Source: Nevskia sp. (lineage in GTDB: Bacteria; Pseudomonadota; Gammaproteobacteria; Nevskiales; Nevskiaceae). From it: a DNA stretch of 33,100 bases. A program made the position numbers and the translations under genes. The notes under the pieces are model-generated. The model saw only the letters and a program-made list of their open reading frames with translations, was not told where the DNA came from and did no database searches. Below, piece by piece: positions 1,449-27,039 of the stretch; within the stretch, counting starts at the first letter, position 1; every line of letters begins with the position of its first letter. The DNA lies in contig JADHNH010000036.1 of the NCBI GenBank assembly GCA_016779605.1, forward strand, positions 1 to 33,100, written 5' to 3'.

Positions 1449-4313
<2,865 letters not shown>

Positions 4314-5363: not shown

Positions 5364-5414
5364 GCTCAGCATATCGTGGGGAATATGTTCTTCATCCTTC
5401 TTTTTTCAAGGTTT

Positions 5415-6698: not shown

Positions 6699-7174
6699 TT
6701 CGCCTCGTCCAGGATCTTGCGCAGCGCCTCGGCATCCGGCACCGGCGGCGGCGCGGCCGACCGGCGCGCGCGCCGCACCAGCGCCAGCACCATCGCCAGG
6801 CCCGCCAGCGCCAGCAGGAACGGCCCGGCCCACAGCAGCGCGGTGCGCGCCGACAGGCTCGGCCGGTACAGCACGAACTCGCCGTAGCGGTCGGTGAGGA
6901 ACTTCTTCACGTCCTCGTCGCTGGCGCCCTTGGCGTACAGGCCGCGGATCTCGTAGCGCAGGTCGGCCGCCAGTGAAGCCTGCGAGTCGGCCAGCGACTC
7001 GTTCTGGCACACCAGGCAGCGCAGCTCCGGCAGCAGCGCGCGGTAACGCGCCTCCTGCTGCGCGTCGAGCACGATCGGCGGCTTGGCCGACTCGACCTGC
7101 GCCGCGATGTGAAACGTGGGGACCAGCAGCGCCGCGCACAGCAGGAAGCGCACGGCAAACCGCGCGGAAGGCAT
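6695..7174 (-). CDS. ccmH: Cytochrome c maturation thioreductase CcmH
   Basis: Periplasmic membrane-anchored thiol-disulfide protein that keeps the apocytochrome CXXCH cysteines reduced for haem attachment. The 159-residue protein starts with a signal peptide (FLLCAALLVPTFHIAAQ). It carries the family motif LRCLVCQNES with Cys53 and Cys56, and ends with one membrane span (about 108-128, LLWAGPFLLALAGLAMVLALV). The ATG overlaps the ccmG stop by 1 nt (TGATG). The G-rich AGGGGGG just upstream, inside the ccmG end, would serve as its ribosome site. The start of ccmH lies only 17 bp from a GGGAATC array. Confidence 0.95.
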   Translation of the reverse strand: MPSARFAVRFLLCAALLVPTFHIAAQVESAKPPIVLDAQQEARYRALLPELRCLVCQNESLADSQASLAADLRYEIRGLYAKGASDEDVKKFLTDRYGEFVLYRPSLSARTALLWAGPFLLALAGLAMVLALVRRARRSAAPPPVPDAEALRKILDEAK

Positions 7175-7722
7175 CAAGGCTGCCCCCCTCGATTCCCGTT
7201 TCCCGATTCCCGATTCCCGATCAAGGGCATGATGTTGTGTTCGAACGCCTGCTGCGTCATCGGCCCGATCTGCTTGTAGACGATGGTGCCCGCGGCGTCG
7301 AGCACGAAGGTCTCCGGCACGCCGTACACGCCCCAGTCGATGCCGGTGCGGCCGTCGGCGTCGGCCAGCACGCTTGCATACGGATTGCCGTGGCGGCCCA
7401 GCCAGGCGTGCACGTCGTCGGCCGCGTCCTTGTAGTCCACGCCCACCAGCCGCACGCGGCCGCTGCGCGCCAGCTCCATCAGGTAGGGGTGCTCGTCCTG
7501 ACAGCCGGCGCACCAGCTGGCGAAGAAGTTCACCAGCACCGGCGCGCCGCGCAGGTCGGCGGTGCGCATGCGCGGCGGCGTGCCGTCGAGCGTCGGCAGG
7601 TCGAAGGCCGGCGCCGGCTTGCTGACCAGCGGGCTGGGCACCAGGCGCGGGTCGCGCTGCAGGCCCACCATGAACAGCACCAGCAGGCCGGCAAGGACGG
7701 CGATGGGGATGGCGTAGCGCAT
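7174..7722 (-). CDS. ccmG: Thiol:disulfide interchange protein CcmG/DsbE
   Basis: Membrane-anchored periplasmic thioredoxin-fold protein that reduces CcmH or apocytochrome c. It has an N-terminal anchor (about 4-20), then the thioredoxin domain with FFASWCAGC (active-site Cys71 and Cys74), a cis-Pro loop (VYGVPETFVLD), and 182 residues in total. The active-site spacer is Ala-Gly, where many CcmG proteins have Pro-Thr or Val-Thr. The last 15 residues (IGNRESGNGNRGGQP) are encoded almost wholly by a GGGAATC repeat array, so the natural C-terminus has been replaced or extended by repeat DNA. The thioredoxin core is complete, so the protein is probably functional. The stop overlaps the ccmH start. 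Confidence 0.95.
   Translation of the reverse strand: MRYAIPIAVLAGLLVLFMVGLQRDPRLVPSPLVSKPAPAFDLPTLDGTPPRMRTADLRGAPVLVNFFASWCAGCQDEHPYLMELARSGRVRLVGVDYKDAADDVHAWLGRHGNPYASVLADADGRTGIDWGVYGVPETFVLDAAGTIVYKQIGPMTQQAFEHNIMPLIGNRESGNGNRGGQP
7191..7218. repeat. Array of four GGGAATC-type heptamers inside the 3' end of ccmG
   Basis: On the plus strand it reads GATTCCC, GTTTCCC, GATTCCC, GATTCCC, four tandem 7-bp units with one unit degenerate. It lies in the coding region and encodes the GNRESGNGNR tail of CcmG. The same heptamer recurs at 7731, 7856, 14349 and 14428. Confidence 0.9.
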
Positions 7723-7730
7723 CAGAAGCC

Positions 7731-7876
7731 GGGAATCGGGAATCGGGAATCGGGAATCGTCAAAAGCGCTGGCGACGGCTGCGGCAATGCCAGGGCGCCG
7801 GCCGCACGGCGGCTGAAGGCAAGCGAAGCTGGCGAACGGGATTTCAACAAATCCCGATTCACGATTCCCGATTCCC
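7731..7876. repeat. Inverted pair of GGGAATC heptamer arrays between ccmG and ccmF
   Basis: Four perfect GGGAATC units (7731-7758) are followed by about 97 bp of spacer. Then come three reverse-oriented units (GATTCAC, GATTCCC, GATTCCC; 7856-7876). The arrays can pair as a long hairpin. The element fills the 159-bp gap between the ccmF stop (7882) and the ccmG start (7722), in an operon whose neighbouring genes otherwise overlap by 1-4 nt, so it looks inserted. No gene is seen in the spacer. Confidence 0.88.
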
Positions 7877-7881
7877 GGCCT

Positions 7882-9858
7882 TTACGCAAGCGCCGCCTCC
7901 GACGCCTGCGCGGCACTGCGCTCGGCGGCGCGGGCCAGGCGGTAGCGGCGGTCGCTGGCGGCCAGGCCGCCGCCCAGGAACATGAGCACGCCGCCGCCCC
8001 AGATCAGCCGCACCATCGGCTTGACGTAGACGCGCAGGCTCCAGCTGCCGTCCTCGTAGCCCTCGCCCAGCGAGACGTAAAGGTCGCGCATCAGGCCGGC
8101 GTCGATCGAGGACTGCGTCATCACCGTGCCCTGCGAGGGGAACTGGCGCTTTTCCGGGTACAGCGTGGTGACCAGGCTGCCGCCGCGCTCGACGGTGACG
8201 GTGCCGCGCTGGGCCAGGTAGTTGGGGCCCTGGGTTTCCTTTTCGTCGCGGAAGGTGAAGGTGTAGCCGCCGAGGTCCGCGCCGGCGTTCGGTGCCAGCC
8301 GCACGTCCTTTTCCGCGCCGAAGCTGACCACGTAGCTCACCCCCAGCGCCCACACGCCCAGGCCGACGTGCGCCAGGGTCATGCCCCAGACCGCGCGCGG
8401 CACGCCGGCGATGCCGGCCGCCAGCGAAGGCTTGCTGCGCACGCGCTTCCACACGTCCTGCACGGCGGCGAACACGGTCCAGGCCGCCAGCAGCGAGCCG
8501 GCCACCGCGAAGGCCGGCAGCCGGCCGTAGGTGGCCAGCGGCAGCAGCACCGCGGCGACCACGGCGGCGGCGGCGGGGATGCGCAGGCGCCGCCAGGCCG
8601 GCGCCGCTTCGCCGCGCTTCCACGGCACCACCGCGGCCAGCCCCACCAGCAGCAGCAGCGGCACGATCAGCGGCAGGAACACCGCGTTGAAGTACGGCGG
8701 CCCCACCGACAGCTTGCCCAGGCCCAGCGCGTCGAGCACCAGCGGGTACAAAGTTCCGAGCAGCACGCCGCCGGCGGCCGCCAGCAGGAACACGTTGTTG
8801 AACAGCAGCAGGCCTTCGCGCGAGAACAGCTTGAGCTCGGCGCTGGTGGCGAGCCGCGGCGCTCGCCAGGCGTACAGGCCCAGGGCGCCGCCGACCACCA
8901 CCGCCATGAAGCCGAGGATGAACTCGCCGCGCGAGGGGTCGGTGGCGAAGGCGTGCACCGACACCAGCACGCCCGAGCGCACCAGGAAGGTGCCCAGCAG
9001 CGACAGCGAGAACGCCAGGATCGCCAGCAGCACGGTCCAGCCCTTGAGCAGGCCGCGCTTCTCGGTGACCGCCAGCGAGTGGATCAGCGCGGTACCGGCC
9101 AGCCAGGGCATGAACGAAGCGTTTTCCACCGGGTCCCAGAACCACCAGCCGCCCCAGCCAAGCTCCTTGTAGGCCCACCACGAGCCGAGCGTGATGCCCA
9201 TGGTGAGGAACATCCAGGCGGTGGTGGTCCAGGGCCGCGTCCAGCGCGCCCAGGCGGCGTCGAGCCGGCCGGTGATGAGCGCGGCGATGGCGAAGGCAAA
9301 CGCCACCGAGAAGCCGACGTAGCCCATGTAGAGCATCGGCGGGTGGATGGCCAGGCCCGGGTCCTGCAGGATCGGGTTCAGGTCGCGGCCCTCCTCCGGC
9401 ACCGGCACCAGCCGCGTGAACGGGTTGGAGGTGAGCAGGATGAACAGGTAGAAGCCCACGCTGACCGCGCCCAGCGCGGACAGCACCAGCGCGCTCATGT
9501 CCGCCGGCAGGCGCCGGTTGAATATAGACACGGCCAGCGTCCAGCCCGCCAGGATGGTCACCCACAGCAGCAGCGAACCCTCGTGGGCGCCCCACACCGC
9601 CGAGATGCGGTAGATCAGCGGCAGCAGCGAGTGGTCGTTCTGCGCCACGTAGGCGACCGAGAAATCCTTGGTGACGAAGGCGTAGGTCAGGCAGCCGTAG
9701 GCCACCGCCACGCAGACGAACTGGCCGTGCGCGGCGGATGTTGCGAAGCCGAGCAGGCGCGCGTCGCGGCGGCGCCAGCCGATCAGCGGCAGGCTGGCCT
9801 GCAGCAGCGCGACCGCCAGCGCGAGGATCAGGGCGAAATGGCCGAATTCGGGGATCAT
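7882..9858 (-). CDS. ccmF: Haem lyase subunit CcmF
   Basis: Large polytopic membrane protein that, with CcmH/I, ligates haem from holo-CcmE to apocytochrome c. The 658-residue length matches the family (about 640-670). There are many hydrophobic spans from the N-terminus (MIPEFGHFALILALAVALLQA) onwards. The periplasmic haem-handling WWD motif appears as WGGWWFWDPVENASF at about 225-240. A conserved AHEGSLLLWV block lies near residue 92, and the large C-terminal periplasmic loop is present before the final span. The ATG overlaps the ccmE stop by 1 nt (TGATG). The C-terminus ends just before a repeat element but is not visibly altered by it. Confidence 0.97.
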   Translation of the reverse strand: MIPEFGHFALILALAVALLQASLPLIGWRRRDARLLGFATSAAHGQFVCVAVAYGCLTYAFVTKDFSVAYVAQNDHSLLPLIYRISAVWGAHEGSLLLWVTILAGWTLAVSIFNRRLPADMSALVLSALGAVSVGFYLFILLTSNPFTRLVPVPEEGRDLNPILQDPGLAIHPPMLYMGYVGFSVAFAFAIAALITGRLDAAWARWTRPWTTTAWMFLTMGITLGSWWAYKELGWGGWWFWDPVENASFMPWLAGTALIHSLAVTEKRGLLKGWTVLLAILAFSLSLLGTFLVRSGVLVSVHAFATDPSRGEFILGFMAVVVGGALGLYAWRAPRLATSAELKLFSREGLLLFNNVFLLAAAGGVLLGTLYPLVLDALGLGKLSVGPPYFNAVFLPLIVPLLLLVGLAAVVPWKRGEAAPAWRRLRIPAAAAVVAAVLLPLATYGRLPAFAVAGSLLAAWTVFAAVQDVWKRVRSKPSLAAGIAGVPRAVWGMTLAHVGLGVWALGVSYVVSFGAEKDVRLAPNAGADLGGYTFTFRDEKETQGPNYLAQRGTVTVERGGSLVTTLYPEKRQFPSQGTVMTQSSIDAGLMRDLYVSLGEGYEDGSWSLRVYVKPMVRLIWGGGVLMFLGGGLAASDRRYRLARAAERSAAQASEAALA

Positions 9859-10337
9859 CAGCTGGGCGCCGTCACCGACTTGAACGGCGCGCAGGAGTGC
9901 TTGCCGTCGACATTGCCCACCGCCTTGGCGACATTGGGCGGCATGTAGTTCTCGTCGTGCTTGGCCAGTATCGTGCTGGCGACGAACACCTGGCCGGCCT
10001 CCATGTGGCCGGTGGCGACGACGCCCTGGCCCTCGCGGAACAGGTCCGGCAGCACGCCGTCGTAGCGCACCGGCACGGCGTTCTTGCAGTCGCTCATGAC
10101 GAACTCGATCTTCAGTCCCTCGCCGTGCTTGAGGCTGCCCCTTTCCACCAGGCCGCCGAGCTGCAGCGCGGCACCGGCCGGCAGCGTGCCCGACAGCAGG
10201 TCCGACGGCGTGTAGAAATACATCATGTTCTTGCGGAAAGCGGTGACGCCCAGCGCCGCGGCCAGGCTCACGCCCGTCACCAGGGCGGCCACCGCAACCA
10301 TGCGCTTCTGCCGCTTCGTCAGGCCGGGTCTGGACAT
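9858..10337 (-). CDS. ccmE: Haem chaperone CcmE
   Basis: Periplasmic haem chaperone that receives haem from CcmC and binds it covalently through a His. The 159-residue protein has one N-terminal anchor (about 14-31) and an OB-fold domain. The signature LAKHDENYMPP gives haem-binding His127 and Tyr131. An extra LPAGAALQLGGLVERGSL block is typical of the family. The start overlaps the stop of ccmD by 1 nt and its stop overlaps the ccmF start. Confidence 0.96.
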   Translation of the reverse strand: MSRPGLTKRQKRMVAVAALVTGVSLAAALGVTAFRKNMMYFYTPSDLLSGTLPAGAALQLGGLVERGSLKHGEGLKIEFVMSDCKNAVPVRYDGVLPDLFREGQGVVATGHMEAGQVFVASTILAKHDENYMPPNVAKAVGNVDGKHSCAPFKSVTAPS

Positions 10338-10486
10338 TATTGTTCCTCGCTGTCCGATTCGGCGCCTGCGGATAGCAGCCGCTTCAAGTCGTTGCGGCGC
10401 AGGCGCGGCGCGAACGCGTTCCAAACCAGCACCAGCGCGGTCAGCGCGTAGCTGCCCCAGATGAAAACGGCGTATTTCGGATTCAT
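10337..10486 (-). CDS. ccmD: Haem exporter accessory protein CcmD
   Basis: 49-residue single-span protein that helps release holo-CcmE from the CcmABC complex. It has the family pattern: short N-terminus, one hydrophobic segment with conserved aromatic residues (YAVFIWGSYALTALVLVWN), then a basic stretch (PRLRRNDLKRLL). The ATG overlaps the ccmC stop by 4 nt (ATGA) and the TAA overlaps the ccmE start. Identification rests as much on position between ccmC and ccmE as on sequence. Confidence 0.92.
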   Translation of the reverse strand: MNPKYAVFIWGSYALTALVLVWNAFAPRLRRNDLKRLLSAGAESDSEEQ

Positions 10487-11226
10487 GCCGCCACCCGTTC
10501 CTGCGCCCAGCGGGTGTTGCGTTCGCGCCAGAGCACTTCGTTCTGCATGCGCCGCAGCCACACCGCACCGAAGAAAAGGTAGAAACCGGCCAGGCTCACC
10601 AGCAGCGGCCACAGCATGTCGCCGCTGATTTTCGGGTTGCGCATGCCTTCGAAGCTCAGCAGGGTCGATCCCTGGTGCAGGGAGTTCCACCATTCGACCG
10701 ACTTCTTGTTGATGTAGACGAACACCACCCCGATCAGCGCCAGCCAGGCGCTGGCCCGCGCCCCGGCCCGGGGATCGGCATACGCGCGGTTGAGCCCGAG
10801 CACGCCCAGGTACTGGAACAGCAGCAGCAGCTCCAGGGTGAGCCGCACGTCCCACACCCAGTAGGCCCCCCACATCGGCTTGCCCCACAGCATGCCGGTG
10901 ACCAGGGCCAGCGCGGTGAAGCTGGCGCCCACCGGCGCCGCCGCCACCAGGGCCACCTCGGCAAGCTTCATGCGCCAGATCAGGGCGACGGCGGCGGCCA
11001 GGGCCATCGCCACGTAGATGCTCATCGACAGGGCGGCGGCGGGGACATGCACATAGATGATGCGGAACGCGTCGCCCTGCTGGTAATCCGGCGGCGCGAC
11101 GAACAGGCCGCCGTAGACCCCGGCGCCGACCAGCAGCACCCCGGCCGCAAACAGCCACGGCGCCAGCGACTCGGCAAAACGGTAAAAGGTCGGCGGTGAG
11201 GCGAGCTGGTGAAACCAGGTCCACAT
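10483..11226 (-). CDS. ccmC: Haem exporter membrane protein CcmC
   Basis: Polytopic inner-membrane protein that transfers haem to CcmE. The 247-residue protein carries the WWD motif WGAYWVWDVRL at about 119-129, plus the flanking His60 (IIYVHVPAA) expected of a haem axial ligand. There are about six hydrophobic spans. The ATG at 11226 (MWTWFHQLASPP) matches family N-termini; the longer frame would need a TTG start. It is separated from ccmB by a 172-bp gap containing a repeat element, unlike the overlapping genes downstream. Confidence 0.96.
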   Translation of the reverse strand: MWTWFHQLASPPTFYRFAESLAPWLFAAGVLLVGAGVYGGLFVAPPDYQQGDAFRIIYVHVPAAALSMSIYVAMALAAAVALIWRMKLAEVALVAAAPVGASFTALALVTGMLWGKPMWGAYWVWDVRLTLELLLLFQYLGVLGLNRAYADPRAGARASAWLALIGVVFVYINKKSVEWWNSLHQGSTLLSFEGMRNPKISGDMLWPLLVSLAGFYLFFGAVWLRRMQNEVLWRERNTRWAQERVAA

Positions 11227-11255
11227 AGATGGTGTTGTCGTCAAAAGTCACTTTT

Positions 11256-11380
11256 GCCTCTCCCTCCGGGAGAGGCCGCGCCGCAGGCGCGGGTGAGGGG
11301 CCGCCGGATCGACGAGGTGCGCACTTTACGAACACGCCGCGCCCCTCACCCCACCCCCTCCCCCGGAGGGCGGGGGGCAG
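11256..11380. repeat. Composite inverted-repeat element between ccmB and ccmC
   Basis: A perfect 9-bp stem GCCTCTCCC/GGGAGAGGC with a 3-nt loop lies at 11256-11276. The decamer GGGTGAGGGG (11291-11300) is matched by its exact reverse complement at 11342-11351. A G/C-rich stem CCCCCTCC...GGGGGG follows at about 11354-11377. The CTCTCCC...GGGTGAGGG / CCCTCACCC pattern resembles dispersed intergenic repeats of gammaproteobacteria. It fills most of the gap between the ccmC start and the ccmB stop. Confidence 0.7.
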
Positions 11381-13299: not shown

Positions 13300-13484
13300 G
13301 AACGGTTCAGCCGGACGGCGCAGCGGACACGGTTGCGGACGACGCCGGGAACGGCGAGCCGTGATCCGCCAATCGATCGGGTAATGCTCCGGTTTGCAGA
13401 GTTTCATGCCGAACAACGATTTTGAGGGCGGCACGAGCTAAAATAAGCGCCTGCCCTTGTTCGCACCCTGATCTGGAATCCCGC

Positions 13485-14363
13485 TTGAGCGCCCGACTGA
13501 TCGATGGCAAGGCGATTGCCGCCCAGGTGCAGGCGCGCGTCGCCGCCGCGGTGGCCGGCCGGCTGGCCGCGGGCGGGCGGGCGCCGGCGCTGGCCACGGT
13601 GCTGGTCGGCGCCGACCCCGCCTCGGAAATCTACGTGCGCAACAAGCGGCGCAGCTGCGAGTCGGTGGGCATCCGCTCGGTGCCGCTGCACTTCGACGTG
13701 GAGATCAGCCAGGCGGAGCTGCTGGCCGCCGTGGACCGCCTGAACGGCGACGACGCGATCGACGGCATCCTGGTGCAGCTGCCGCTGCCGGCGCACATCG
13801 AGGCGCAGCGCGTGATCGAGCGGATCCGGCCGGACAAGGACGTGGACGGCTTCCACCCCTACAACCTCGGCCGCCTGGCGCAGCGCCTACCGGCCCTGCG
13901 CCCGTGCACGCCCTACGGCGTGATCGAGCTGCTCAAGTCCACCGGCGAGAACCTCTACGGCAAGCGCGCCCTGGTGGTGGGCGCCAGCAACCACGTCGGC
14001 CGGCCGATGGGCCTGGAACTGCTGCTGGCCGGCTGCACCACCACTGTGGCGCACCGCTTCACCCGCGAGCTGGACCAGGAAGTGGCGCGCGCCGAGGTGC
14101 TGGTGGTGGCGGTGGGCAAGCCGGCCTTCGTGCGGGGCGACTGGGTGCGGCCGGGCGCCATCGTCATCGACATCGGCATCAACCGCCTGCCCGACGGCAA
14201 GCTGGTGGGCGACGTGGAGTTCGAGCGCGCGCGCGAACGCGCCGCCTGGATCACCCCGGTACCCGGCGGCGTGGGGCCGATGACGGTGGCCATGCTGATG
14301 CAGAACACGCTGGAAGCCGCCGCCATGCGCCAGGCCGCTGGCGCGGCCGGGAATCGGCAATAG
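13485..14363 (+). CDS. folD: Bifunctional methylene-THF dehydrogenase / cyclohydrolase FolD
   Basis: NADP-dependent oxidation of 5,10-methylene-THF to methenyl-THF and hydrolysis to 10-formyl-THF in one-carbon metabolism. The 292-residue length fits FolD. Catalytic Tyr50 and Lys54 lie in [30 protein letters not shown] and the Rossmann loop [13 protein letters not shown] are all present, and [12 protein letters not shown] closes the fold. The start is taken as TTG at 13485 ([12 protein letters not shown]), because no in-frame ATG fits and it puts Tyr50/Lys54 at the same numbers as in E. coli FolD. The ribosome site is weak. A TAAAAT box lies about 40 nt upstream. The last residues (AGNRQ) and the TAG stop are encoded within a GGGAATC array. 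Confidence 0.95.
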
Positions 14364-18841: not shown

Positions 18842-19309
18842 ATGAAAACAACTCTGCTGCTGGCCGCGCTGCTGTGCGGCGCCGCACCCGGCGCCGGTGC
18901 CCAGGTCGCCGTGCGCTACGCCGTGAACATCCCCGGCACCTGCCAGTCCGCTTCGATCAACGGCGAAGACCACACCCGCGAATGCCGCGCCGACCACCTG
19001 GTCAACGCCGCCTATACCAATGGCCGCGCGATGTTCGCGTTCAACATGGGAACCGTGGTGGCGTTCGCCGGCAACGAGGAGCGGCAGCCCGCCACTGACC
19101 GCTACCTGCTGCGCGTCTCCAACCTGAATGTCGCCGGCACGCGGCTGCCCGCCAAAGGAGCGTGCACCGTCGAGGGCAAGCTGAAGGACCAGGCCACCGT
19201 CACCTGCCAGGCCAAGTCGCTGCCCGCCGAAGGCTCCGGCGAACCGCCGTTCGAAGCGCGCATCGTCTACCGCGCATCCGGCGAAGCGCAGCCGCTGCCA
19301 GGCAACTGA
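18842..19309 (+). CDS. Small exported protein of unknown function
   Basis: 155-residue protein with a clear signal peptide (MKTTLLLAALLCGAAPGAGAQ, cleavage probably near residue 20). The mature part is polar and has four Cys that could pair in the periplasm (GTCQSA, RECRAD, GACTVEG, VTCQAKS). I do not recognise the family. It lies 164 bp downstream of the OmpA-family gene on the same strand. A TACACT box at 18761-18766 could be its own -10 element. The codon usage and exported sequence make it a real gene rather than a shadow. Confidence 0.7.
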   Translation: MKTTLLLAALLCGAAPGAGAQVAVRYAVNIPGTCQSASINGEDHTRECRADHLVNAAYTNGRAMFAFNMGTVVAFAGNEERQPATDRYLLRVSNLNVAGTRLPAKGACTVEGKLKDQATVTCQAKSLPAEGSGEPPFEARIVYRASGEAQPLPGN

Positions 19310-19506
19310 GCCGCGCGACAATGGCGGCCAAGGCACGCCATGCCCTGGCAGTGCCTGCTCGTCGAGCGCCGCCGCAGCCGCAGGGTAAGACGCGCCGGGC
19401 ATGAAGGGCGGCCGCAGGCCACCATGCGGGGCCGCGCGCCGTTCGCCTGATGCGCTGCCGGGCGAAGTGCGCGCCTGCGGACTCCCCGGCGATTGGCTCC
19501 AGCGGA

Positions 19507-19941
19507 TCAGAGCGCCGGCGGATCGCCGTGGCGCAGCAGTTCGTTGAACTCCAGCACGTTCGAGTCCGGGTCGCGCACGAAGCAAAGCCGCCTGCGCCCG
19601 TTGGCCACGACCATCGGCCCTTCGGTGATGTGCAAGCCCCAACGCTCGAATGTCCGGAGCAGGGCATCCATGTCGTGCACTACGAACGCCGCATGCGTGT
19701 AGCCGGGCAGCTTCGCCGCGCCGTCCATGAGCACGTTGCCGTGCGGATGCGTGGCGGAAGCGTTGTAAATGAGGTGGATCCGCGCGCCCGCGTCGTTGAC
19801 CAGCCCGATGGCCTTGGCCGCGGGAGCGTCTTCGTCCGGGTCCACCCGGAAGCCGAGCCTGCCGTAGAACGCCAATGCGCGCTCCTTGTCGGCGACGCGC
19901 AGCCCCACGTGGTCGATCGCACCCACGGTCACAGCGTTCAT
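19507..19941 (-). CDS. VOC-family (glyoxalase/bleomycin-resistance fold) protein
   Basis: 144-residue vicinal-oxygen-chelate protein with two beta-alpha-beta-beta-beta modules. Probable metal ligands are His11 (IDHVGLRV), His83 (YTHAAFVV) and Glu131 (NVLEFNEL), with His56 (IHLIY) as another candidate. The DPDSNVLEF ending is typical of lyases and dioxygenases of this superfamily. Its start overlaps the stop of the M15-like gene by 4 nt (ATGA), so it is translationally coupled to, and the last gene of, the aldoxime/nitrile operon. The substrate is unknown. The context suggests it acts on an aldoxime-, nitrile- or aldehyde-derived compound. Confidence 0.85.
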   Translation of the reverse strand: MNAVTVGAIDHVGLRVADKERALAFYGRLGFRVDPDEDAPAAKAIGLVNDAGARIHLIYNASATHPHGNVLMDGAAKLPGYTHAAFVVHDMDALLRTFERWGLHITEGPMVVANGRRRLCFVRDPDSNVLEFNELLRHGDPPAL

Positions 19942-20597
19942 CGGCCCGTTCCAAGCAGCTCGATCGCTGCACCGTACAGATGCGAGTGGTCGCCCTGGAA
20001 ACCTTCCAGGTCGGCGGCCGTGAGCACTTCCTCGGAAAACGGCGCCGGACGCATGAAGGATATCTTCCGCTCGCCGGCCCCCTCGTACCAGCGGATGTTG
20101 AACGCCGCCAGCTGCTCGAAGAAGATGACTTCGTCATGCGCCGGCACATGGTCGCGGATCCACCAGGCCAGGCTCCTCCAGTCGCTGGTCTGCTGGTAGT
20201 AATCGACGTACGCCGGTATGACCACTGTCGCCGTTGCCCCCATGTGCCCGGCCGGGTCGCGCTGGTCCCAGGCATGGCGCGCCGCGTTGTAGGCGTTGTC
20301 CGCGGCCCAGGCCGACACGTCGCCGGCCTTGAACAGCTCGTGGGCAAACGCGTTGAGCCGGCAGGAGCGGAACGCGCTGCGGATGGCGACATGGCCGAAG
20401 GCGGCCTTCATCGGTTCCAGGATGCACTGGCACAGCTGACGGCCCGCTTCGATCGCCGTGTCCGGGTCGTCCGGGTAGTTCGGTACGCAGCAGAAGTTGC
20501 CGACTTCGCTGTACAGCATGTCGCGCATGAAGTAATTCCGCGACAACCTGACCCGGCCGAGCGCGGTCAGCTCGGCGATGGAGGCCGGTTTGCGCAT
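19938..20597 (-). CDS. M15-peptidase-fold-like protein, apparently lacking zinc ligands
   Basis: 219-residue cytoplasmic-looking protein without a signal peptide. The pattern RLSRNYFMRDMLYS...LCQCILEPMKAAFGHVAIRSAFRSCRLNA (about 17-83) follows the N-terminal half of peptidase M15 (D,D-carboxypeptidase-like) domains as I recall them. GHMGATATVV (117-126) sits where M15 enzymes have a HxxGxAxD zinc motif. His118 is kept but the Asp position is Val125. Near the C-terminus, IFFEQLAAFNIRWYEGAGERKISFM replaces the usual E...W-V-H block, with Arg or Trp in place of the His. It therefore looks like a pseudo-enzyme. It sits 45 bp downstream of the aldoxime dehydratase, has a GGAGA ribosome site, and overlaps the VOC gene. 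The function is unknown, and the fold call needs structural confirmation. Confidence 0.55.
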   Translation of the reverse strand: MRKPASIAELTALGRVRLSRNYFMRDMLYSEVGNFCCVPNYPDDPDTAIEAGRQLCQCILEPMKAAFGHVAIRSAFRSCRLNAFAHELFKAGDVSAWAADNAYNAARHAWDQRDPAGHMGATATVVIPAYVDYYQQTSDWRSLAWWIRDHVPAHDEVIFFEQLAAFNIRWYEGAGERKISFMRPAPFSEEVLTAADLEGFQGDHSHLYGAAIELLGTGR

Positions 20598-20642
20598 GTT
20601 CGTCTCCGCGTGGTGGATGCGCTGCCCGGAATGGCTGCGCGG

Positions 20643-21659
20643 CTAGCTGCCGCCCGCACCCAGGGCGAGGAAGCCGGTGCGGTTGTGGCAATTGACATAG
20701 TCGGCTTGCGCGGCGCCGCGCGGCACCACAAAAACCTCGTGCCACATCGGCACGTCCCATTTCTGGCCCGGCGCCATCGCCGCGGCAGCCTTGAAGAAGG
20801 CGCCGTAGATCGCCAGGTGGCTGCGGTCCGAGCGCGCCCAGTCCAGCAGATGCCCGAGCGAGGCAAACCAGGCGATCGCGTCTGCGCGTTGGATCGGGCG
20901 CCCGTCCAGGTCCTCGCCGCGGATGGCACGCGCCGCGATGCAGCCCAGATCGAAGTGCGCGGCCAGGTGCGCGATGCCGGCTTCCTTGACCGGCGCCACC
21001 TCGCGCCGGTAGACCGGCCCGCTCACCGGCGACTGGCGCCAATCCTCGTGATGCCTGGCCATGCAGATGTTGGCGGGCACGGCGGCCGATACGCGCCGGC
21101 CGCGCGTCTCCGCAGCATTGGGCAGGATGCGCTCCAGCTCCGGCCTGAGCTCCTCCTCCGTCAGGCCGGGCAGGCGGTCGCGCGCCGCGCCCCAATAATC
21201 GTGCGCGGGACAGACCTGCATGGTGCCGTGCTGCGCCACGCCGGTCTGGCCGTAGGCAGCGGGGTCGTGCGGCGTGTACAGGGTGTCCACCGCCCGGCTC
21301 GGCACTTGCACGATCTCGCGCCAGTACCCGGCATCGCCATCTTCCGGCAGCGCGTCCCAGGCGTCCTGCACGGCGGCGCTGCCGGCCCAGCGCGCGTAGT
21401 TCTGTGGGTTGAACCAATAGGCCATGAAGACCGCGTTGGTCAGGCCGGCTGCATCGACGAAGCTGCCGCGGCTCAGTTCGTCGGGGCCGTCGTCGCGGTC
21501 GAGCACTGGACGGAAGCGCTCCAGCTCCTGCGCCGCGCGCTCGGCGCTGGCCGCCTGCGCGCCGAACTGGGCGAAGCGCAGCGTCTTCACGGCCGCCGGC
21601 AGCCGCAGGTTCCACAGCTCGTAACGCGGCGGCGGGCGCTTGGGGGTATCAACGTTCAT
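20643..21659 (-). CDS. oxd: Haem-containing aldoxime dehydratase
   Basis: Converts aldoximes (R-CH=N-OH) to nitriles using ferrous haem that binds the substrate nitrogen. The 338-residue protein aligns by eye along its length to Pseudomonas OxdA as I recall it. FVDAAGLTNAVFMAYWFNP matches the N-terminal half. YWGAARDRLP carries Arg162, equivalent to OxdA Arg178. SHLAIYGAFF gives His281, equivalent to the proximal haem ligand His299. MWHEVFVV gives His307, equivalent to catalytic His320. YVNCHNRTG forms the C-terminal block. The position of OxdA Ser219 is His203 here. AGGAG precedes the ATG. It lies 48 bp downstream of the amidase, in an operon with nitrile hydratase, so its product nitrile would feed directly into that enzyme. 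Confidence 0.9.
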   Translation of the reverse strand: MNVDTPKRPPPRYELWNLRLPAAVKTLRFAQFGAQAASAERAAQELERFRPVLDRDDGPDELSRGSFVDAAGLTNAVFMAYWFNPQNYARWAGSAAVQDAWDALPEDGDAGYWREIVQVPSRAVDTLYTPHDPAAYGQTGVAQHGTMQVCPAHDYWGAARDRLPGLTEEELRPELERILPNAAETRGRRVSAAVPANICMARHHEDWRQSPVSGPVYRREVAPVKEAGIAHLAAHFDLGCIAARAIRGEDLDGRPIQRADAIAWFASLGHLLDWARSDRSHLAIYGAFFKAAAAMAPGQKWDVPMWHEVFVVPRGAAQADYVNCHNRTGFLALGAGGS

Positions 21660-21707
21660 CGACGGCTCCTGAGCCTCCGGAGGCTGCCCTGCGGCGGCTG
21701 CATGTTC

Positions 21708-23144
21708 TCATGCCGCTTGCGCCTGCAATAGCGGCGCGCGCAGATGGAAGCCGGTGCTTTGCTGGTAGGCGGCGGCGACGCCGAACAGGAAGCTTTCCGA
21801 CATCGGCCGGCCGATGATCTGCATGCCGATCGGCAGGCCGTCGCCGTCGAATCCGCACGGTACGCTGATCGCCGGCAGCCCGGTCAGGCTGGGGATGCCG
21901 GTGAAGCGCATGATCGCCGCCAGCATGTCTTCCTCGACGCCGTCCTCGATGGCCACCGTCGTCGCGCCCAGCGGCGTTGCGGTGAACGGCAGCGTCGGGC
22001 AAACGAACACGTCCACCCGGTCGAAGGCCGCCAGGAAATCGCGCCGCAGCGCGCTGCGGTATCGCTGCGCCTGCAGGTAGTGCGTCGCGGGCAGCAGCGC
22101 TCCGGCTTCGAGCAGCGCGCGCACGTCGTCGCCGTAGTCGTCCGGGCGCCGGTGCAGCCAGCGCTGGTGGTAGGTGCTGGGCTCCGCCGCCTCGACGGTC
22201 AACTGCGCGGCGATGTTGTGCTTGATGATGGGCACGTCGATCTCGAACAACCGCGCGCCCATCTGCACCAGGGTACGCAGCGCGGCGGCGACCGCGCCCT
22301 GCACCGCCGGCTGCAGGTGGCGGTCGAAATACCCCGGGATCACGCCGATGCGCAGGCCGCCGACGTCGGCCTGCTGATCGCGCCAGCGCTGCCGGAACCC
22401 GTCGTCCTCGCAGGTGGTCGGGTCCAGGCGGTCGGGCCCGGCGATGGCGTCGAACAGCAGCGCGCAGTCGGCGGCGCTGCGGGCCAGCGGCCCCGCGGTG
22501 TCCATACTCCAGGCCAGCGGCACGATGCCGTGGTTGCTCACGCGGCCGTAGGTCGGCCGGATCCCGGTCACGCCGTTGACCGCGGCCGGCAGGCGGATGG
22601 AACCGCCGGTGTCCGTGCCCAGTGCGCCGAAGCACATGCGGGCCGCCACCGCCGCGCCGGAGCCGCCGCTCGAGCCGGCGGAGAAGCGCGCTGTATTCCA
22701 GGGGTTGGCCACGGTGCCGAAGTGCGGGTTGGCGGAGGTTCCGCCCCAGGCGAACTCGTGCATGTTGAGCTTGCCGACAAAGATCGCGCCGGCCTGGCGC
22801 AGCCGCGCAGCGACGGTGGCGTCTTCCGTCGACACCGCATCGCCCAGGATCTTGCTGCCGGCCGTGGTGCGGAATCCCTTGACGGCGATGTTGTCCTTGA
22901 TCGCAAGCGGCACGCCATGCAGGGGGCCGAGGTCGTGGCCCGCGGCGATCATCAGCTCCGCCGCCCGGGCGACCTGGCGCGCCTGCGCCTCGAACACGGT
23001 GATGTAGGCGTGCAGGCGGCCGTCGACCGCGTGGATGCGCGCCAGCACCGCCTCGACCAGCTCCACCGGCGAGACCGCGCGCGATTTCACCAGCGCCGCC
23101 GCTTCGCACAGGCTCAGCTCGAGGAGGTCGGTCGCTTGCTGCAT
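21708..23144 (-). CDS. Amidase-signature-family hydrolase
   Basis: 478-residue amidohydrolase with the Ser-cisSer-Lys catalytic system. Lys83 lies in AIKDNIAVKG, the cis-Ser in FSAGSSGGSG (158/159), and the nucleophile Ser182 in TDTGGSIRLPA. Hydrolysis of the amide made by nitrile hydratase to a carboxylate and ammonia is its expected role. The ATG overlaps the stop of the small AtzG-like gene by 1 nt (TAATG), so the two are coupled. The sequence also resembles GatA/AtzE-type amidases, which work with a GatC/AtzG-like small subunit. It is probably cytoplasmic, as no signal peptide is seen. The exact substrate cannot be read from sequence. Confidence 0.93.
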   Translation of the reverse strand: MQQATDLLELSLCEAAALVKSRAVSPVELVEAVLARIHAVDGRLHAYITVFEAQARQVARAAELMIAAGHDLGPLHGVPLAIKDNIAVKGFRTTAGSKILGDAVSTEDATVAARLRQAGAIFVGKLNMHEFAWGGTSANPHFGTVANPWNTARFSAGSSGGSGAAVAARMCFGALGTDTGGSIRLPAAVNGVTGIRPTYGRVSNHGIVPLAWSMDTAGPLARSAADCALLFDAIAGPDRLDPTTCEDDGFRQRWRDQQADVGGLRIGVIPGYFDRHLQPAVQGAVAAALRTLVQMGARLFEIDVPIIKHNIAAQLTVEAAEPSTYHQRWLHRRPDDYGDDVRALLEAGALLPATHYLQAQRYRSALRRDFLAAFDRVDVFVCPTLPFTATPLGATTVAIEDGVEEDMLAAIMRFTGIPSLTGLPAISVPCGFDGDGLPIGMQIIGRPMSESFLFGVAAAYQQSTGFHLRAPLLQAQAA

Positions 23145-23413
23145 TAGGGCGACCCCGGATCGGTACGGCAGTGCCTGAACAGGGTCACCGGCAGCAGGTC
23201 GCGGCAGGCCTCGTCCTGCATCGAGGCGTTGAGCAACAGGCCGCCGGACAGCCAGGCGCGCAGGATCGGCAGCAGCGCGGCCTCGCGCCCGGGCGCCAGG
23301 GGGAGCCCCGCGGCGGCGGCCAGGGTGCGCACCGCCTCCGCGGTGAGGGCGCGGTCGAGGTTCGCCGCCTGGGCCGCCGCCCCGCCCGCCTGTTCTTCGA
23401 TGCCGTCGGCCAT
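23144..23413 (-). CDS. AtzG-like small protein (possible amidase subunit)
   Basis: 89-residue protein between nitrile hydratase beta and the amidase. The segment LTAEAVRTLAAAAGLPLAPGREAALLPILRAWLSGGLLLNA, then a C-terminal LPVTLFRH, resembles the AtzG/DUF4089 group. In the AtzE-AtzG pair that small protein stabilises the amidase, much as GatC does for GatA. The stop overlaps the amidase ATG by 1 nt, which supports a physical partnership. It does not resemble the known nitrile hydratase activators (P14K/NhlE type), although its place just after the beta gene is where such a gene usually lies. The start at 23413 leaves an 8-bp gap to the beta-subunit stop. Confidence 0.6.
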   Translation of the reverse strand: MADGIEEQAGGAAAQAANLDRALTAEAVRTLAAAAGLPLAPGREAALLPILRAWLSGGLLLNASMQDEACRDLLPVTLFRHCRTDPGSP

Positions 23414-23421
23414 GGTGATCC

Positions 23422-24054
23422 TCAAGCCTTGTCCAGGTAGCCTTCCCACAGGTCCACCACCACCGAGGCGGCTTCCGCCGTTTCGCCCCAGAGGTCGCTG
23501 CCCTTGAACTCGACGTGATACGTCGGCTCCAGCGCCGCCGGGCGCCCATGGCCGGCGGCGTCGGGAAACGGCCACTTCACGCCGGTGCGGTGCAGGATGG
23601 TGCCGTGTTTGCCGCGCACGTAGCCCGGCATCCGCGTATGGCCGGGCACGAACGCGCCGGCGACCCGCACGCGGTCGCCCACCTCGAACGGCGGCCGAGT
23701 CTCCCGCGCGGGGCGGCCCAGCCCCTGCGGACGCGCCAGCGCGAACCGCCCGCCCGCCAGCGCCTCCAGCTCGGCGTGCGACAACACGCCTTTCTCGACG
23801 TACAGCGAGGCGGTGCCGGCGACGATCCGGTCGTAATACGGCGAGGCGAAGTACTGGCGCGGATCGAGCCGTTCGATCGCGTGGCGCAGCTCGTCCACGT
23901 TGAACACCTTGAGCGTGTCGGCGCCCAGGAACAGCAGCGAATACGCCAGGTGCTCCCAGGGCTCGTGAAACACCGGCCGGTAGGCGACGGAATTGGCCTT
24001 GTGCGCCACTTTTCCGAAGCCCTGCACGCCGCCCAGGTCGTGAATGCCGTCCAT
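23422..24054 (-). CDS. Nitrile hydratase subunit beta
   Basis: 210-residue beta subunit that forms the alpha/beta heterodimer hydrating nitriles to amides. The N-terminus MDGIHDLGGVQGFGKV is diagnostic. The helical region FNVDELRHAIERLDPRQYFASPYYDRIVAG (51-80) carries the conserved Arg57 that contacts the alpha metal centre. The C-terminal beta-barrel (FEVGDRVRVAGAFVPGHTRMPGYVRGKHGTI, YHVEFKGSDLWG) is complete. The ATG overlaps the alpha stop by 1 nt (TGATG), so the order is alpha-beta. No activator gene follows it directly. Confidence 0.96.
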   Translation of the reverse strand: MDGIHDLGGVQGFGKVAHKANSVAYRPVFHEPWEHLAYSLLFLGADTLKVFNVDELRHAIERLDPRQYFASPYYDRIVAGTASLYVEKGVLSHAELEALAGGRFALARPQGLGRPARETRPPFEVGDRVRVAGAFVPGHTRMPGYVRGKHGTILHRTGVKWPFPDAAGHGRPAALEPTYHVEFKGSDLWGETAEAASVVVDLWEGYLDKA

Positions 24055-24686
24055 CAGTACCCGCCTCCGCGAAGTCCGCCGCCGGTGCCGCCCGCCGCGG
24101 GGTCGGGCCGGGCGATGCCGATCAGCACGTCCTTGGTCACGATCGAGGCCAGCTTGGCCTCGTCCCAGCCCTCGGTGCCGGCGGGACGGAACGGCAGCAC
24201 CATATAACGCGTTTCCGCCGTCGTGTCCCACACCCGGATGTCCACCTCCGGCGGCAGGTCCAGGCCCATCTCGCGCAGCACGCTGCGTGACTCCCGCACC
24301 ACGCGGGCGCGGTACTCGAAGCTCTTGTACCAGTCCGGCGGCAGGCCGAGCACCGGCCACGCGGTGCAGGAGCACAGCGTGCAGACGATCACGTTCTGCA
24401 GCGTCGGGGTGTTTTCCAGGGCGACGATGTATTCGCCCTGCGGACCGACGTAGCCGAACTGCGCGCAGGCGCTCGTTCCGTCCTTCAGCAGCAAGTCGCG
24501 GTAGCCGGGGTCCACCCAGGCGCGGGCCACCACCCGCGCGCCGTTCTCCGGCGCCCAGTCCTGCTCCATCAGCCGGGTGAAATCCTCCACGAACCCCTCC
24601 GGCACCAGGTGCCGCCGCCGCAGCGCGGCCTCCAGGGCGCGGGCCCGGTCGGCCACCGGGGCTTGCTCGAGAATCGGTCCGCTCAT
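24054..24686 (-). CDS. Nitrile hydratase subunit alpha, cobalt type
   Basis: 210-residue metal-binding subunit. The claw motif VCTLCSCTAW gives Cys102, Cys105, Ser106 and Cys107. The Thr after the first Cys (CTLCSC) marks the cobalt type, whereas iron enzymes have CSLCSC. In the family Cys105 and Cys107 are oxidised to sulfinate and sulfenate. WPVLGLPPDWYKSFEYRARVVRESR and YMVLPFRPAGTEGW are conserved. The chosen ATG at 24686 has an AGGGTGG ribosome site upstream and gives the normal length. It is the first gene of the operon and is read divergently from the AraC-type regulator. Confidence 0.96.
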   Translation of the reverse strand: MSGPILEQAPVADRARALEAALRRRHLVPEGFVEDFTRLMEQDWAPENGARVVARAWVDPGYRDLLLKDGTSACAQFGYVGPQGEYIVALENTPTLQNVIVCTLCSCTAWPVLGLPPDWYKSFEYRARVVRESRSVLREMGLDLPPEVDIRVWDTTAETRYMVLPFRPAGTEGWDEAKLASIVTKDVLIGIARPDPAAGGTGGGLRGGGY

Positions 24687-24963
24687 GCGTATCCACCCTG
24701 CGGTATTCGCGGCGGCCGTCGTGTTCCGGCCCACCTGCGTCGCCGACGATCCTAATGCCGCGCCCCGCCCGGCGGCTTGCCTGCGCCTGCCAGGCGATGG
24801 CCCAGGAATGACACGCCACCAGCGGCAGGAACGACCGGCGGAACGACACCGGCGCGCGGCCGGCGCGTCGCAGGAATCTCGCGGCGGCAGGCGCTCGCGC
24901 CGAAGCTGTGGCGCGAGCGCATAATTGCCGCAGGAGTGCCCCAGTCCGGGTTAGGCTCTGTTC
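24687..24963. promoter_or_regulatory. Divergent control region of the aldoxime/nitrile operon, with GGAAYGAC repeats
   Basis: The 277-bp gap lies between the nitrile hydratase operon and the regulator gene. It holds three same-direction copies of GGAAYGAC at 24805-24812, 24828-24835 and 24840-24847. The last two are 12 bp apart, start to start. Direct repeats of this kind are how AraC-family dimers often bind. A CATAAT box at 24920-24925 could serve the regulator gene. No strong promoter is evident for the leftward operon, which would fit activator dependence. Confidence 0.35.
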
Positions 24964-25893
24964 ATGCTGATCTACAACACGTCGAGCGTCGCCGAGAAGC
25001 ACCGCTTCGAGTTCTGGCACGAGGTGATCTGCCGGCACTTCGTTCCCGCCAGCAGCCAATACGAAAACCGGGCGGCCTTCAACGCGCGCTTCCAGACCGC
25101 GGCACTCGGGCCGGTGCACATCAGCCGGCTCACCGCGCCGCGGCACGCGTGGTCGCGCAAGCAGGTCCACGTGCGCCGCGCGCCGCACGAGGAATTCCTG
25201 CTGAGCCTGCCACTCGCCGCGGGCTCCTGCCTCGGGCAAAGCGAGCGCCAGCTCCTGCAGCGACCGGGTGAAATGGCGTTTTACGACACCGCGCAGCCGT
25301 TCTCGTACCTGCTGGAATCCGACCTCATCCTGGTCAAGATCCCACGGCACGAGATGCTCACGCGCCTGTCGGCGCCGGGCCGCCTCACCGCCACCGGGTT
25401 TGGGCTGGCAACGGCCGTCGGCCGGCTGGCGGCCGGCCTCATCCAGCAGTCCCTGGACCTCGACCTGTCCGCCAACCCGGCGGCCGCCGGAAAGATCGGC
25501 TCCTCGCTTCTGGACGCCACCGCGGCGGCCATCGAGCTGGAGCTGCTGGGCGGCGCCGACACCCGGCCGAGGCAGGCGATCCGGTTGGAGCAGATCAAGC
25601 AATTCGTGGCCGCCCGCTTGGCCGACCGTGGCCTGAGCGCCGAAAGCATCGCCGCCCGCCACAACATCTCCGCCAGGACCCTCAACCGGCTGTTCGCGCT
25701 GGAAGGCACGACGCCGATGCGCTGGGTCTGGGAAACGCGCCTGCAAGCCTGCCACCGGCAGTTGAGCGCCGCCCGCCCCGGCCGCGTGACCGACGTGGCG
25801 CTTGCCTGCGGCTTTTCCGACCTTTCGCACTTCTGCCGCGCCTTCAAAGCGCACTTCGGGGTATCGCCGGGCGCCGTGGCCAAGCGGCATTGA
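24964..25893 (+). CDS. AraC-family transcriptional regulator (NitR-type)
   Basis: 309-residue regulator. An N-terminal AraC-binding-2-like effector domain (about 1-200, HRFEFWHEVICRHF, HEEFLLSLPLAAGS, GEMAFYDTAQPFSYL) is followed by the double helix-turn-helix (about 205-309, LSAESIAARHNISARTLNRLFALEGTTPMRWVWETRLQ and VTDVALACGFSDLSHFCRAFKAHFGVSPG). AraC proteins of this architecture control nitrilase and nitrile hydratase operons and respond to nitriles or amides. The divergent placement strongly suggests control of the 19507-24686 operon. The effector here is unknown; an aldoxime or nitrile is the natural guess. Confidence 0.92.
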   Translation: MLIYNTSSVAEKHRFEFWHEVICRHFVPASSQYENRAAFNARFQTAALGPVHISRLTAPRHAWSRKQVHVRRAPHEEFLLSLPLAAGSCLGQSERQLLQRPGEMAFYDTAQPFSYLLESDLILVKIPRHEMLTRLSAPGRLTATGFGLATAVGRLAAGLIQQSLDLDLSANPAAAGKIGSSLLDATAAAIELELLGGADTRPRQAIRLEQIKQFVAARLADRGLSAESIAARHNISARTLNRLFALEGTTPMRWVWETRLQACHRQLSAARPGRVTDVALACGFSDLSHFCRAFKAHFGVSPGAVAKRH

Positions 25894-26064: not shown

Positions 26065-26943
26065 TCAAGCCGCCTGCGTCGCGGCGCCGTATTCGCGCAA
26101 CACCGCGTCGAATACCTTGGCGAACGTGTGCACGTCGCCGGGCCAGCGCGCGGAGACGTAGTTGCCGTCGCGCACCACCCAGGCCGGCGCGCTGTCGGTC
26201 GGAGTGTCGCGCAGCAGGCCGCCGGTCTTGGCGAAGTGGTGCGGCGCATCGCGCGGCACGTCGAGGAAATCCTCCGGCGCGGCCAGGGCGCGGGTGACCT
26301 CCTGCTGCACGCCCATGTACCCGCGCGGCTGGCCCGGCGCCTCCGGGTAAGTGCGGTAATAGTCCGGGTCCCAGAAGCGGGCCAGGTACCGCGTCAGCGT
26401 CCAGCCGGATTTTTCCAGGGCCCAGGTGAGCGCCGTGGTCTTGCGCCCGTGCAGCACCGGGAGGCCGGTGCGGGGCGAACGGCTGCGCGCCGCCAGCAGC
26501 ACGCCGTGGCACACCGCCGCCACCGGCTTGCCGCTGTCGAAAAACGCACCGACGAAGGCTTGCAGCGCCTCGCTTTCGAGGTAGGGGCGCATGCCCTTGG
26601 CGTGCCCGCCGGGCAGCAGCAGGCCGTCGTAGTCGGCCACCCGCAGCGCGGCGTACGCCAGCGGTGCCAGGAACGCCGGATCGCGTTCCATCTCGCGGTA
26701 GGCGCGACGTGCCGGGGCCTGTGCGCGCAGCGCCAGCCCGATCAGGCGCAGCTTGCGCAACACCGGCACGAAGCCCCAGGGGTCCAGCCCTTCGCCGCTC
26801 AGCATCAGGGGGTCGGCATAGGCACGGCGGCCATCCGGGGTGGCGAAATGCACGGCATGGCCGGCCTCGCGCAGGATCTTCCAGCTCACCGCCGCCTCGG
26901 TGGGATCGAAGCCGCGGCTCGGCAACGGGATGAGGACGTTCAT
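26065..26943 (-). CDS. DJ-1/PfpI-family protein
   Basis: 292-residue class I glutamine amidotransferase-like protein. The nucleophile elbow AAVCHGVLL gives Cys145 and His146, and LLLPGGHAKGMRPYL is the upstream acidic-loop region. Family members include chaperone/deglycase, glyoxalase III and isocyanide hydratase enzymes. It is longer than a typical DJ-1 (about 190), with extra sequence at 45-100 and a C-terminal extension (RDAPHHFAKTGG, WVVRDGNYVSARWPGDVHTFA). That resembles the larger Hsp31/type-1 glutamine-amidotransferase-like group. The ATG at 26943 begins MNVLIPLPSRGFDPTE. It converges on the AraC gene and is divergent from the DsrE-like gene. Isocyanide hydratase activity would suit the nitrile neighbourhood, but nothing in the sequence proves it. 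Confidence 0.85.
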   Translation of the reverse strand: MNVLIPLPSRGFDPTEAAVSWKILREAGHAVHFATPDGRRAYADPLMLSGEGLDPWGFVPVLRKLRLIGLALRAQAPARRAYREMERDPAFLAPLAYAALRVADYDGLLLPGGHAKGMRPYLESEALQAFVGAFFDSGKPVAAVCHGVLLAARSRSPRTGLPVLHGRKTTALTWALEKSGWTLTRYLARFWDPDYYRTYPEAPGQPRGYMGVQQEVTRALAAPEDFLDVPRDAPHHFAKTGGLLRDTPTDSAPAWVVRDGNYVSARWPGDVHTFAKVFDAVLREYGAATQAA

Positions 26944-27039
26944 GCGCGCAGCCTCGGCCGGGAATCGGATAAACCGCATCGTAACGCAGCCGGCCAGCGA
27001 GGCGGCCTGATAGGCTTAGCGCTCGCAAGGGAGGAACCT

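Follow-up and report, generated by a model that had tools for sequence, protein, structure and literature searches.

The stretch analysed here (the window) comprises 33,100 nucleotides of contig JADHNH010000036.1 from a Nevskia sp. genome (assembly GCA_016779605.1; 4.08 Mb, 188 contigs, 95% complete), which belongs to the same family as Panacagrimonas (Nevskiaceae). Seven open reading frames (ORFs) lie in one run on the minus strand, from position 24686 down to 19507, and encode in that order the two subunits of a nitrile hydratase (NHase), a small protein, an amidase, an aldoxime dehydratase (Oxd), an M15-peptidase-like protein and a VOC protein. NHase alpha (24054–24686, 210 aa) carries the metal motif CTLCSCT followed by AWP, and matched PF02979 (255 bits) and, above its cut-off, TIGR01323 (281 bits). 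NHase beta (23422–24054, 210 aa) likewise exceeded the cut-off of TIGR03888 (229 bits) and matched NHase_beta_N (108 bits) and NHase_beta_C (100 bits). Between beta and the amidase lies the gene of a small, probably helical protein of 89 aa (23144–23413), which we propose as a GatC/AtzG-like amidase partner in role. There follow the amidase-signature family amidase (21708–23144, 478 aa; PF01425, Amidase, 407 bits), Oxd (20643–21659, 338 aa; PF13816, Dehydratase_hem, 196 bits), a diverged M15-peptidase-like protein (19938–20597, 219 aa) that matched Peptidase_M15_3 in profile-profile comparison and is probably without a zinc site, and a VOC/glyoxalase-superfamily protein (19507–19941, 144 aa; PF00903, Glyoxalase, 55 bits). 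On the plus strand, divergent from alpha, is the gene of an AraC/XylS-type regulator (24964–25893, 309 aa; AraC_binding_2, PF14525, 67.5 bits; HTH_18, PF12833, 75 bits). The 277-bp region between the two (24687–24963) would, judging from its position, be expected to hold the operator and both promoters.

The initial annotation had described these genes as one tightly packed unit of seven beside a divergent AraC gene, and both the unit and its junctions were reproduced. The alpha and beta genes overlap by 1 base (TGATG), as do those of the 89-aa protein and the amidase (TAATG), and the M15-like and VOC genes overlap by 4 bp (ATGA); the gaps are 8 bp from beta to the 89-aa gene, 48 bp from the amidase to Oxd and 45 bp from Oxd to the M15-like gene. 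GC content at third codon positions is 0.87–0.96 across all seven genes. A scan of 19150–25100 gave no sigma-70-like promoter, and the count of terminator-like sites in the same interval was not above that in shuffled sequences. Therefore, a single transcript is inferred from the gene spacing only. Scans of the window with Rfam (gathering scores) and for tRNAs gave no matches.

All four enzymes scored far above their Pfam cut-offs and belong to the families needed to take an aldoxime through nitrile and amide to an acid, so the claim of the initial annotation that this gene set is present in one unit is sound. Moreover, Oxd and both NHase subunits lie in a single co-directional run, as in an aldoxime-nitrile pathway gene cluster. 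An aldoxime would be converted to a nitrile by the heme Oxd, the nitrile to an amide by the NHase, and the amide to a carboxylate and ammonia by the amidase-signature enzyme. The nearest solved chain to Oxd is phenylacetaldoxime dehydratase (7f2y, 165 bits; the other two solved Oxds scored 128 and 111 bits), and its score with the NCBIfam aliphatic Oxd model (166 bits) was far under the cut-off of 600. The nearest solved relative of the amidase is GatA (303 bits), with the biuret hydrolase AtzE (6c62) fourth at 252 bits, and its matches to the NCBIfam models for AtzE and for indoleacetamide hydrolase fell under the respective cut-offs. Given these affinities of Oxd and the amidase, the substrate is probably an arylacetaldoxime. 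The regulator's best NCBIfam match was FeaR (123 bits, cut-off 199), which controls aromatic-amine catabolism, and expression would be governed by this AraC protein. The pathway is of a known kind; the gene order is unusual.

The initial annotation had called the NHase Co-type, a label that came from the metal motif alone. The nearest solved chain to alpha is that of Rhodococcus 2ahj_A (290 bits, 67% identity over 189 residues), compared with 234 bits for the best cobalt-labelled chain; for beta the corresponding scores are 262 bits (2ahj_B) and 119 bits. We take 2ahj to be the iron enzyme of Rhodococcus strain N-771, consistent with its CSLCSCT motif, and by kinship with the N-771 subunits both alpha and beta are of the iron-type lineage. 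In a tree of 26 alphas, those of the window, both Panacagrimonas clusters, Burkholderia cenocepacia and 2ahj formed one clade (support 100/100). A cobalt-type assignment from the motif alone is thus rejected, given the solved relatives of both subunits and the alpha tree. Within the tree, CTLCSCT occurs in the window and both Panacagrimonas, CSLCSCT in Burkholderia and 2ahj, and CTLCSCY in the other 21, and the pattern C[ST]LCSCTxWP was found in 3 of 398 genomes of a phylum sample (the window with Thr, two others with Ser). Passages of PMC2770081 call the iron (CSLCSCT) and cobalt (CTLCSCY) motifs strictly conserved; the window alpha fits neither. As both subunits are nearest the iron enzyme and alpha falls inside the iron clade, CTLCSCT reads as a hybrid motif, a cobalt-like CTLCSC part on an iron-type protein. 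No word beginning with CTLCSCT was found in the literature text searched (subscription papers lay outside this and the other text searches reported here).

The same passages tie the choice of iron or cobalt to the motif together with a matching helper protein, with the activator Nha3 and the accessory protein NhlE encoded beside their respective hydratase genes (PMC2770081). Neither kind of helper gene was found in the operon or in the 95%-complete genome, a second respect in which the Co-type label lacks support. In each of the three iron-type comparator loci (two from the phylum sample, and Burkholderia), one ORF encoding CxCC and a P-loop abuts or overlaps the end of beta; the same test gave no such ORF for the two Panacagrimonas loci, for the locus of a groundwater metagenome-assembled genome (MAG) described below or anywhere in the window. 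The cobalt-type accessory model TIGR03889 had no match in the operon proteins or in the window's own genome (nor did it match any control genome); the positive control, a Pantoea accessory protein, scored 88 bits. The three cobW-family matches in the window's genome, none on its contig, were taken on inspection by eye for HypB, Ffh and a methylmalonyl-CoA-mutase-type protein.

One explanation is that the NHase is an ordinary iron enzyme for which the change of Ser to Thr has no consequence and no chaperone is needed to insert the iron, as reported for Comamonas testosteroni Ni1 in E. coli. The iron-type lineage of both subunits agrees with this, and according to passages of PMC7329996 the iron-type Ni1 hydratase was functional when expressed in E. 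coli without its activator. Against it, the same source states that the Ni1 genome does carry an activator gene; all three members of the branch share the Thr with the 21 CTLCSCY rows, while both iron-type reference rows lack it; and the two class motifs are described as strictly conserved (PMC2770081). We consider the ordinary iron enzyme quite possible, though somewhat short of an even chance. At the other extreme, an iron-to-cobalt switch would have involved gain of the cobalt-type Thr, loss of the iron chaperone and loading of cobalt without a chaperone, with an M15 pseudopeptidase and a GatC-like partner recruited to the operon; as a complete scenario this is unlikely. As precedents for operation without a chaperone there are the Ni1 enzyme and a Rhodococcus iron enzyme that, once loaded with cobalt, retained 5.9% of its activity (excerpt of PMC7193024). 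The reading that we prefer is that of an NHase of iron-type descent with a cobalt-type threonine, which probably needs no dedicated chaperone to mature and may incorporate cobalt. With an iron-type body, a cobalt-type residue and neither known helper found, the branch would allow the motif and helper factors to be separated in one expression experiment.

The 89-aa protein matched no Pfam or NCBIfam family at E 0.001. Homologues lie between beta and the amidase in both Panacagrimonas clusters (in the second, a MAG, the protein was found by translation). The groundwater MAG also has one ahead of its amidase, so that this order holds in all four close clusters; an alignment of the four has 15 invariant columns, none of them a cysteine. 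An AlphaFold model is helical with a mean predicted local distance difference test score (pLDDT) of 72. Five Foldseek matches were obtained with this model, three of them to chains C or F of GatCAB/GatFAB entries, which we take to be GatC and GatF, and these were weak (E 7 to 9). Homology to AtzG (PF13318) is not accepted: hmmscan gave no match of the protein to this family, and hhalign of its profile with AtzG a probability of 1.4%. A search of the Protein Data Bank (PDB) sequences with the profile returned four matches at E 0.7 or worse, none of them GatC, and a plasmid search with the protein gave no match at E 0.1. A search for the AtzG-like family had no match in 21 relatives (no control matched either) and 2 matches in 114 class genomes. 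The AtzG gene precedes atzE, and passages of PMC6219798 describe AtzE as insoluble without its non-catalytic partner AtzG, the pair being thought to derive from GatCA. By analogy, the most likely function of the 89-aa protein is to assist the amidase in the fashion of GatC or AtzG, without catalytic activity of its own. Its position raises the alternative of a new NHase maturation factor: the gene immediately follows beta, the usual site of the activator, in the window and in both Panacagrimonas clusters, and three comparators have an activator-like frame there. However, in the groundwater MAG, whose locus has lost the NHase, the gene is still next to the amidase, and the protein has neither an invariant cysteine nor a match to the known accessory family. 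A maturation factor is distinctly improbable, and a role as amidase partner is preferred.

The aldoxime cluster is rare in the genus, the order and the class sample. Among 18 genomes of the genus, protein searches matched Oxd in the window's own alone; matches were present in 4 of 85 genomes of the order (the own genome, two of the Panacagrimonas group at 59–60% identity and one weak match of 66 residues) and in 8 of 369 genomes of the class sample, the own included, where two of the eight were weak (E > 1e-4). Two short peptide patterns were also run against 84,980 species genomes, a scan that is limited to kin retaining these peptides and may omit the window's own record. It yielded 10 Oxd loci, of which seven are in Streptomyces, two in Panacagrimonas and one in a groundwater MAG. 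Recent acquisition of the whole cluster from outside would account for Oxd not being found in the other 17 genus genomes searched. However, its base composition fits the window (gene GC 0.66–0.76 compared with 0.70 for the window), and the nearest full clusters occur in the same family. On balance we think such an acquisition doubtful.

The initial annotation had drawn attention to the M15-like and VOC genes as additions to the cluster, and had named their absence from every other genome with the cluster as one outcome that would tell against it. To survey both genes, 20 distinct Oxd loci besides the window were searched by tblastn with all window proteins (E 0.001), several of these loci being cut by contig ends. 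They were L024–L032 (nine), L036–L042 (seven), L112, L109, L127 and L128; excluded were L014, L022 and L023 (weak or short Oxd, with 1.5-kb flanks), L033 (annotation only) and repeats of counted places. For VOC the named absence is what was found, with no match in any of the 20. For the M15-like gene it is not, since one of the 20, a decayed cluster in the groundwater MAG, holds a match. The 1.5-kb flanks of L014, L022 and L023 held no match to either gene, and in L033, a Streptomyces plasmid locus known from annotation only, a nitrilase-family gene is annotated and neither extra gene is.

The groundwater MAG (JACQWY010000038) keeps the AraC gene (64% identity), the amidase (73%), the M15-like gene (78%) and the small protein (67% over 60 residues). 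Approximately 37 C-terminal residues of Oxd remain, and there was no match to NHase alpha or beta at the locus (the best in a low-threshold search, E 0.028, was not counted). An NHase alpha with the cobalt motif lies elsewhere in this MAG (L075, G295:C65, 7729–8301), where the search match crosses one TGA. The nonsynonymous substitution rate (dN) between window and MAG was lowest for the M15-like gene (0.155), followed by the amidase (0.192), the AraC gene (0.271) and the small protein (0.413). The ratios to the synonymous rate (dS), which are rough with dS of 0.8 to 1.9, were 0.08, 0.22, 0.25 and 0.52, respectively. The lowest dN and dN/dS thus point to constraint on the M15-like gene at a locus where two enzymes were lost. 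This bears on whether the M15-like and VOC genes came to the end of the operon by chance and play no part in it. The counts given above (VOC 0/20, M15-like 1/20) would be expected of such passengers, as would the other viewed neighbourhoods of M15-like relatives, which are without Oxd; however, the M15-like gene was kept, with the lowest dN of four, at a site from which the NHase and most of Oxd have gone, and in the window the two genes overlap by 4 bp. Chance passengers seem to us somewhat unlikely, and an auxiliary role for the pair is preferred.

That the M15-like protein is an M15 relative, as the initial annotation had it, is borne out by profile comparison, though its zinc ligands seem largely gone. 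The protein itself had no match in Pfam or NCBIfam (E 0.001), nor in PHROGs or PADLOC at the limits applied. Its family profile matched that of Peptidase_M15_3 members (56–78 bits with PF08291) over the N-terminal 89 columns with a probability of 98.1% (E 1.3e-13, hhalign), which marks it as a diverged relative of this group. The family alignment has an invariant RSxxR...N motif and one invariant His. Reading the zinc ligands H, D and H by motif, H108 is kept, the Asp place holds T or C and the place of the last His holds N167, a mapping that is an inference for a region largely outside the profile match; the protein probably lacks a zinc site. Structural comparison counts against M15 homology: with a model of pLDDT 84, Foldseek gave no match at E 0.001, and a VanY-like L,D-carboxypeptidase appeared only at rank 18 (E 4.1). 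A PDB sequence search with the profile found nothing up to E 10. The endolysin family PHROG 894 matched four of five relatives scanned at E ≤ 0.001 (down to 3e-9), the closest relative only at 0.035 and the window's own protein not at all.

In a tree of 20 members, the window protein grouped with those of the groundwater MAG and a Shinella plasmid (100/100). Ten plasmid records held a match, of which six were viewed; besides Shinella, the neighbours were NACHT, dynamin-family, GatCAB or unnamed genes. Members also occur on 12 contigs classed as viral (L081–L092), and the neighbourhoods of the relatives suggest mobile or defence-island origins. Membership of a known defence system is not supported, PADLOC giving no match for any of seven proteins at E 0.1. 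One relative lies beside a NACHT gene (L007, 1229–6666), and another, in one genome (L105, 6294–10083), adjoins WYL-like and DUF262-like ORFs, named by eye. PNPOx-family genes were seen after the M15-like gene in the groundwater MAG (L031, 9560–10549) and one gene further on in the Shinella sp. HZN7 plasmid (L006, 8490–10547), where a glutathione S-transferase gene lies in between; the two proteins are 43–44% identical, and that of the MAG matched PF01243 under its cut-off. No paper in the literature searched mentions 'aldoxime dehydratase' and 'peptidase M15' together. As a constrained protein in a metabolic operon, the M15-like protein would offer a first handle on its family.

The VOC protein matched glyoxalase I structures weakly. 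Homologues at 50–59% identity were found on Sphingobium and Gluconobacter plasmids, and no aldoxime gene is annotated in the two regions viewed. The Gluconobacter oxydans homologue is encoded in overlap with a gene for a glutathione S-transferase, and the 8 kb viewed in Sphingobium CAP-1 hold no such gene. The VOC protein and the Shinella neighbours hint at the handling of reactive intermediates, and the M15-like and VOC proteins would play an auxiliary part, perhaps in the binding or detoxification of some reactive by-product. The words 'aldoxime dehydratase', 'glyoxalase' and 'nitrile hydratase' occurred together only in a fungal genome paper. The available text of the review PMC11568032 does not contain the word glyoxalase, and that of PMC8955678 contains neither this word nor M15.

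Taken together, an AraC-regulated catabolic operon from aldoxime to acid, with the NHase and accessory readings given above, is the best explanation of the locus as a whole, and one that we consider likely. Several points weigh against it. A maturation gene could be missing from a genome that is 95% complete and in 188 contigs, and the genome search with TIGR03889 matched no control genome, its positive control being one protein run with a different tool. The hybrid motif may have precedents, as the Comamonas Ni1 alpha (4fm4) lay outside the alignments compared. For the 89-aa protein, the fold matches (E 7 to 9), the model (pLDDT 72) and the AtzG profile probability (1.4%) are all weak, and the suggestion of detoxification by the M15-like and VOC proteins draws on the neighbours of a few distant relatives.

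Elsewhere in the window, a DJ-1/PfpI-family gene (26065–26979, minus strand; ThiJ_like, 70 bits) is convergent with the AraC gene. Read by eye, 1449–4313 is presumably 2-oxoglutarate dehydrogenase E1, the minus-strand ORF run at 5400–11340 presumably a cytochrome c maturation cluster, and 13422–14363 presumably FolD.

The initial annotation had also stated that the gene order differs from that of known clusters, and this holds: Oxd comes first in three of four comparator loci, and in the fourth (L109) the NHase is on the other strand. The cluster of the Pseudomonas/Rhodococcus type contains Oxd, amidase, an iron-type NHase and a P47K/Nha3 activator (excerpt of PMC8955678). The window shares its three steps and an iron-lineage hydratase, and two of three iron-type comparator loci viewed (L127 and L128) have an AraC gene divergent from Oxd. 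In contrast to this type, the window has the hydratase genes first and Oxd fifth, Thr in the metal motif, no activator found, and extra genes for the 89-aa, M15-like and VOC proteins. Closest are the clusters of Panacagrimonas perspica and the Panacagrimonas MAG (L034 and L035), whose large proteins are 53–83% identical to those of the window (AraC 53%). They have the AraC gene, amidase, small protein, NHase beta and alpha and Oxd, with the same hybrid motif, but Oxd is divergent from the hydratase genes, the AraC gene follows the amidase on the same strand, and the flanks examined hold no M15-like or VOC match. The plasmid cluster of Pantoea sp. At-9b also combines a divergent AraC-type regulator with Oxd, amidase and NHase; its genes run from Oxd through a transporter, amidase, NHase and accessory protein to CbtB and CbtA, and it differs in its cobalt-type CTLCSCY, its TIGR03889 accessory protein (88 bits) and its CbtA/CbtB genes. 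As in the AtzE-AtzG and GatA-GatC pairs, an amidase-signature enzyme has a small gene directly upstream, but here the small protein has no AtzG profile match and its matches to GatCAB small-chain folds are weak. The M15-like protein resembles Peptidase M15 (PF08291) and endolysin PHROG 894 in an N-terminal half with an SxYRS...N motif and in relatives that match PHROG 894, and departs from them in its place in a metabolic operon and in the apparent replacement of two of three zinc ligands (Asp by T or C, His by N). Possible activator-free hydratases already paired with Oxd and amidase could be of use in cyanide-free synthesis of nitriles and amides. What stands out in this comparison is a hybrid-marked NHase for which no known helper gene was found, and an M15-like gene common to the window and a second, decayed cluster.

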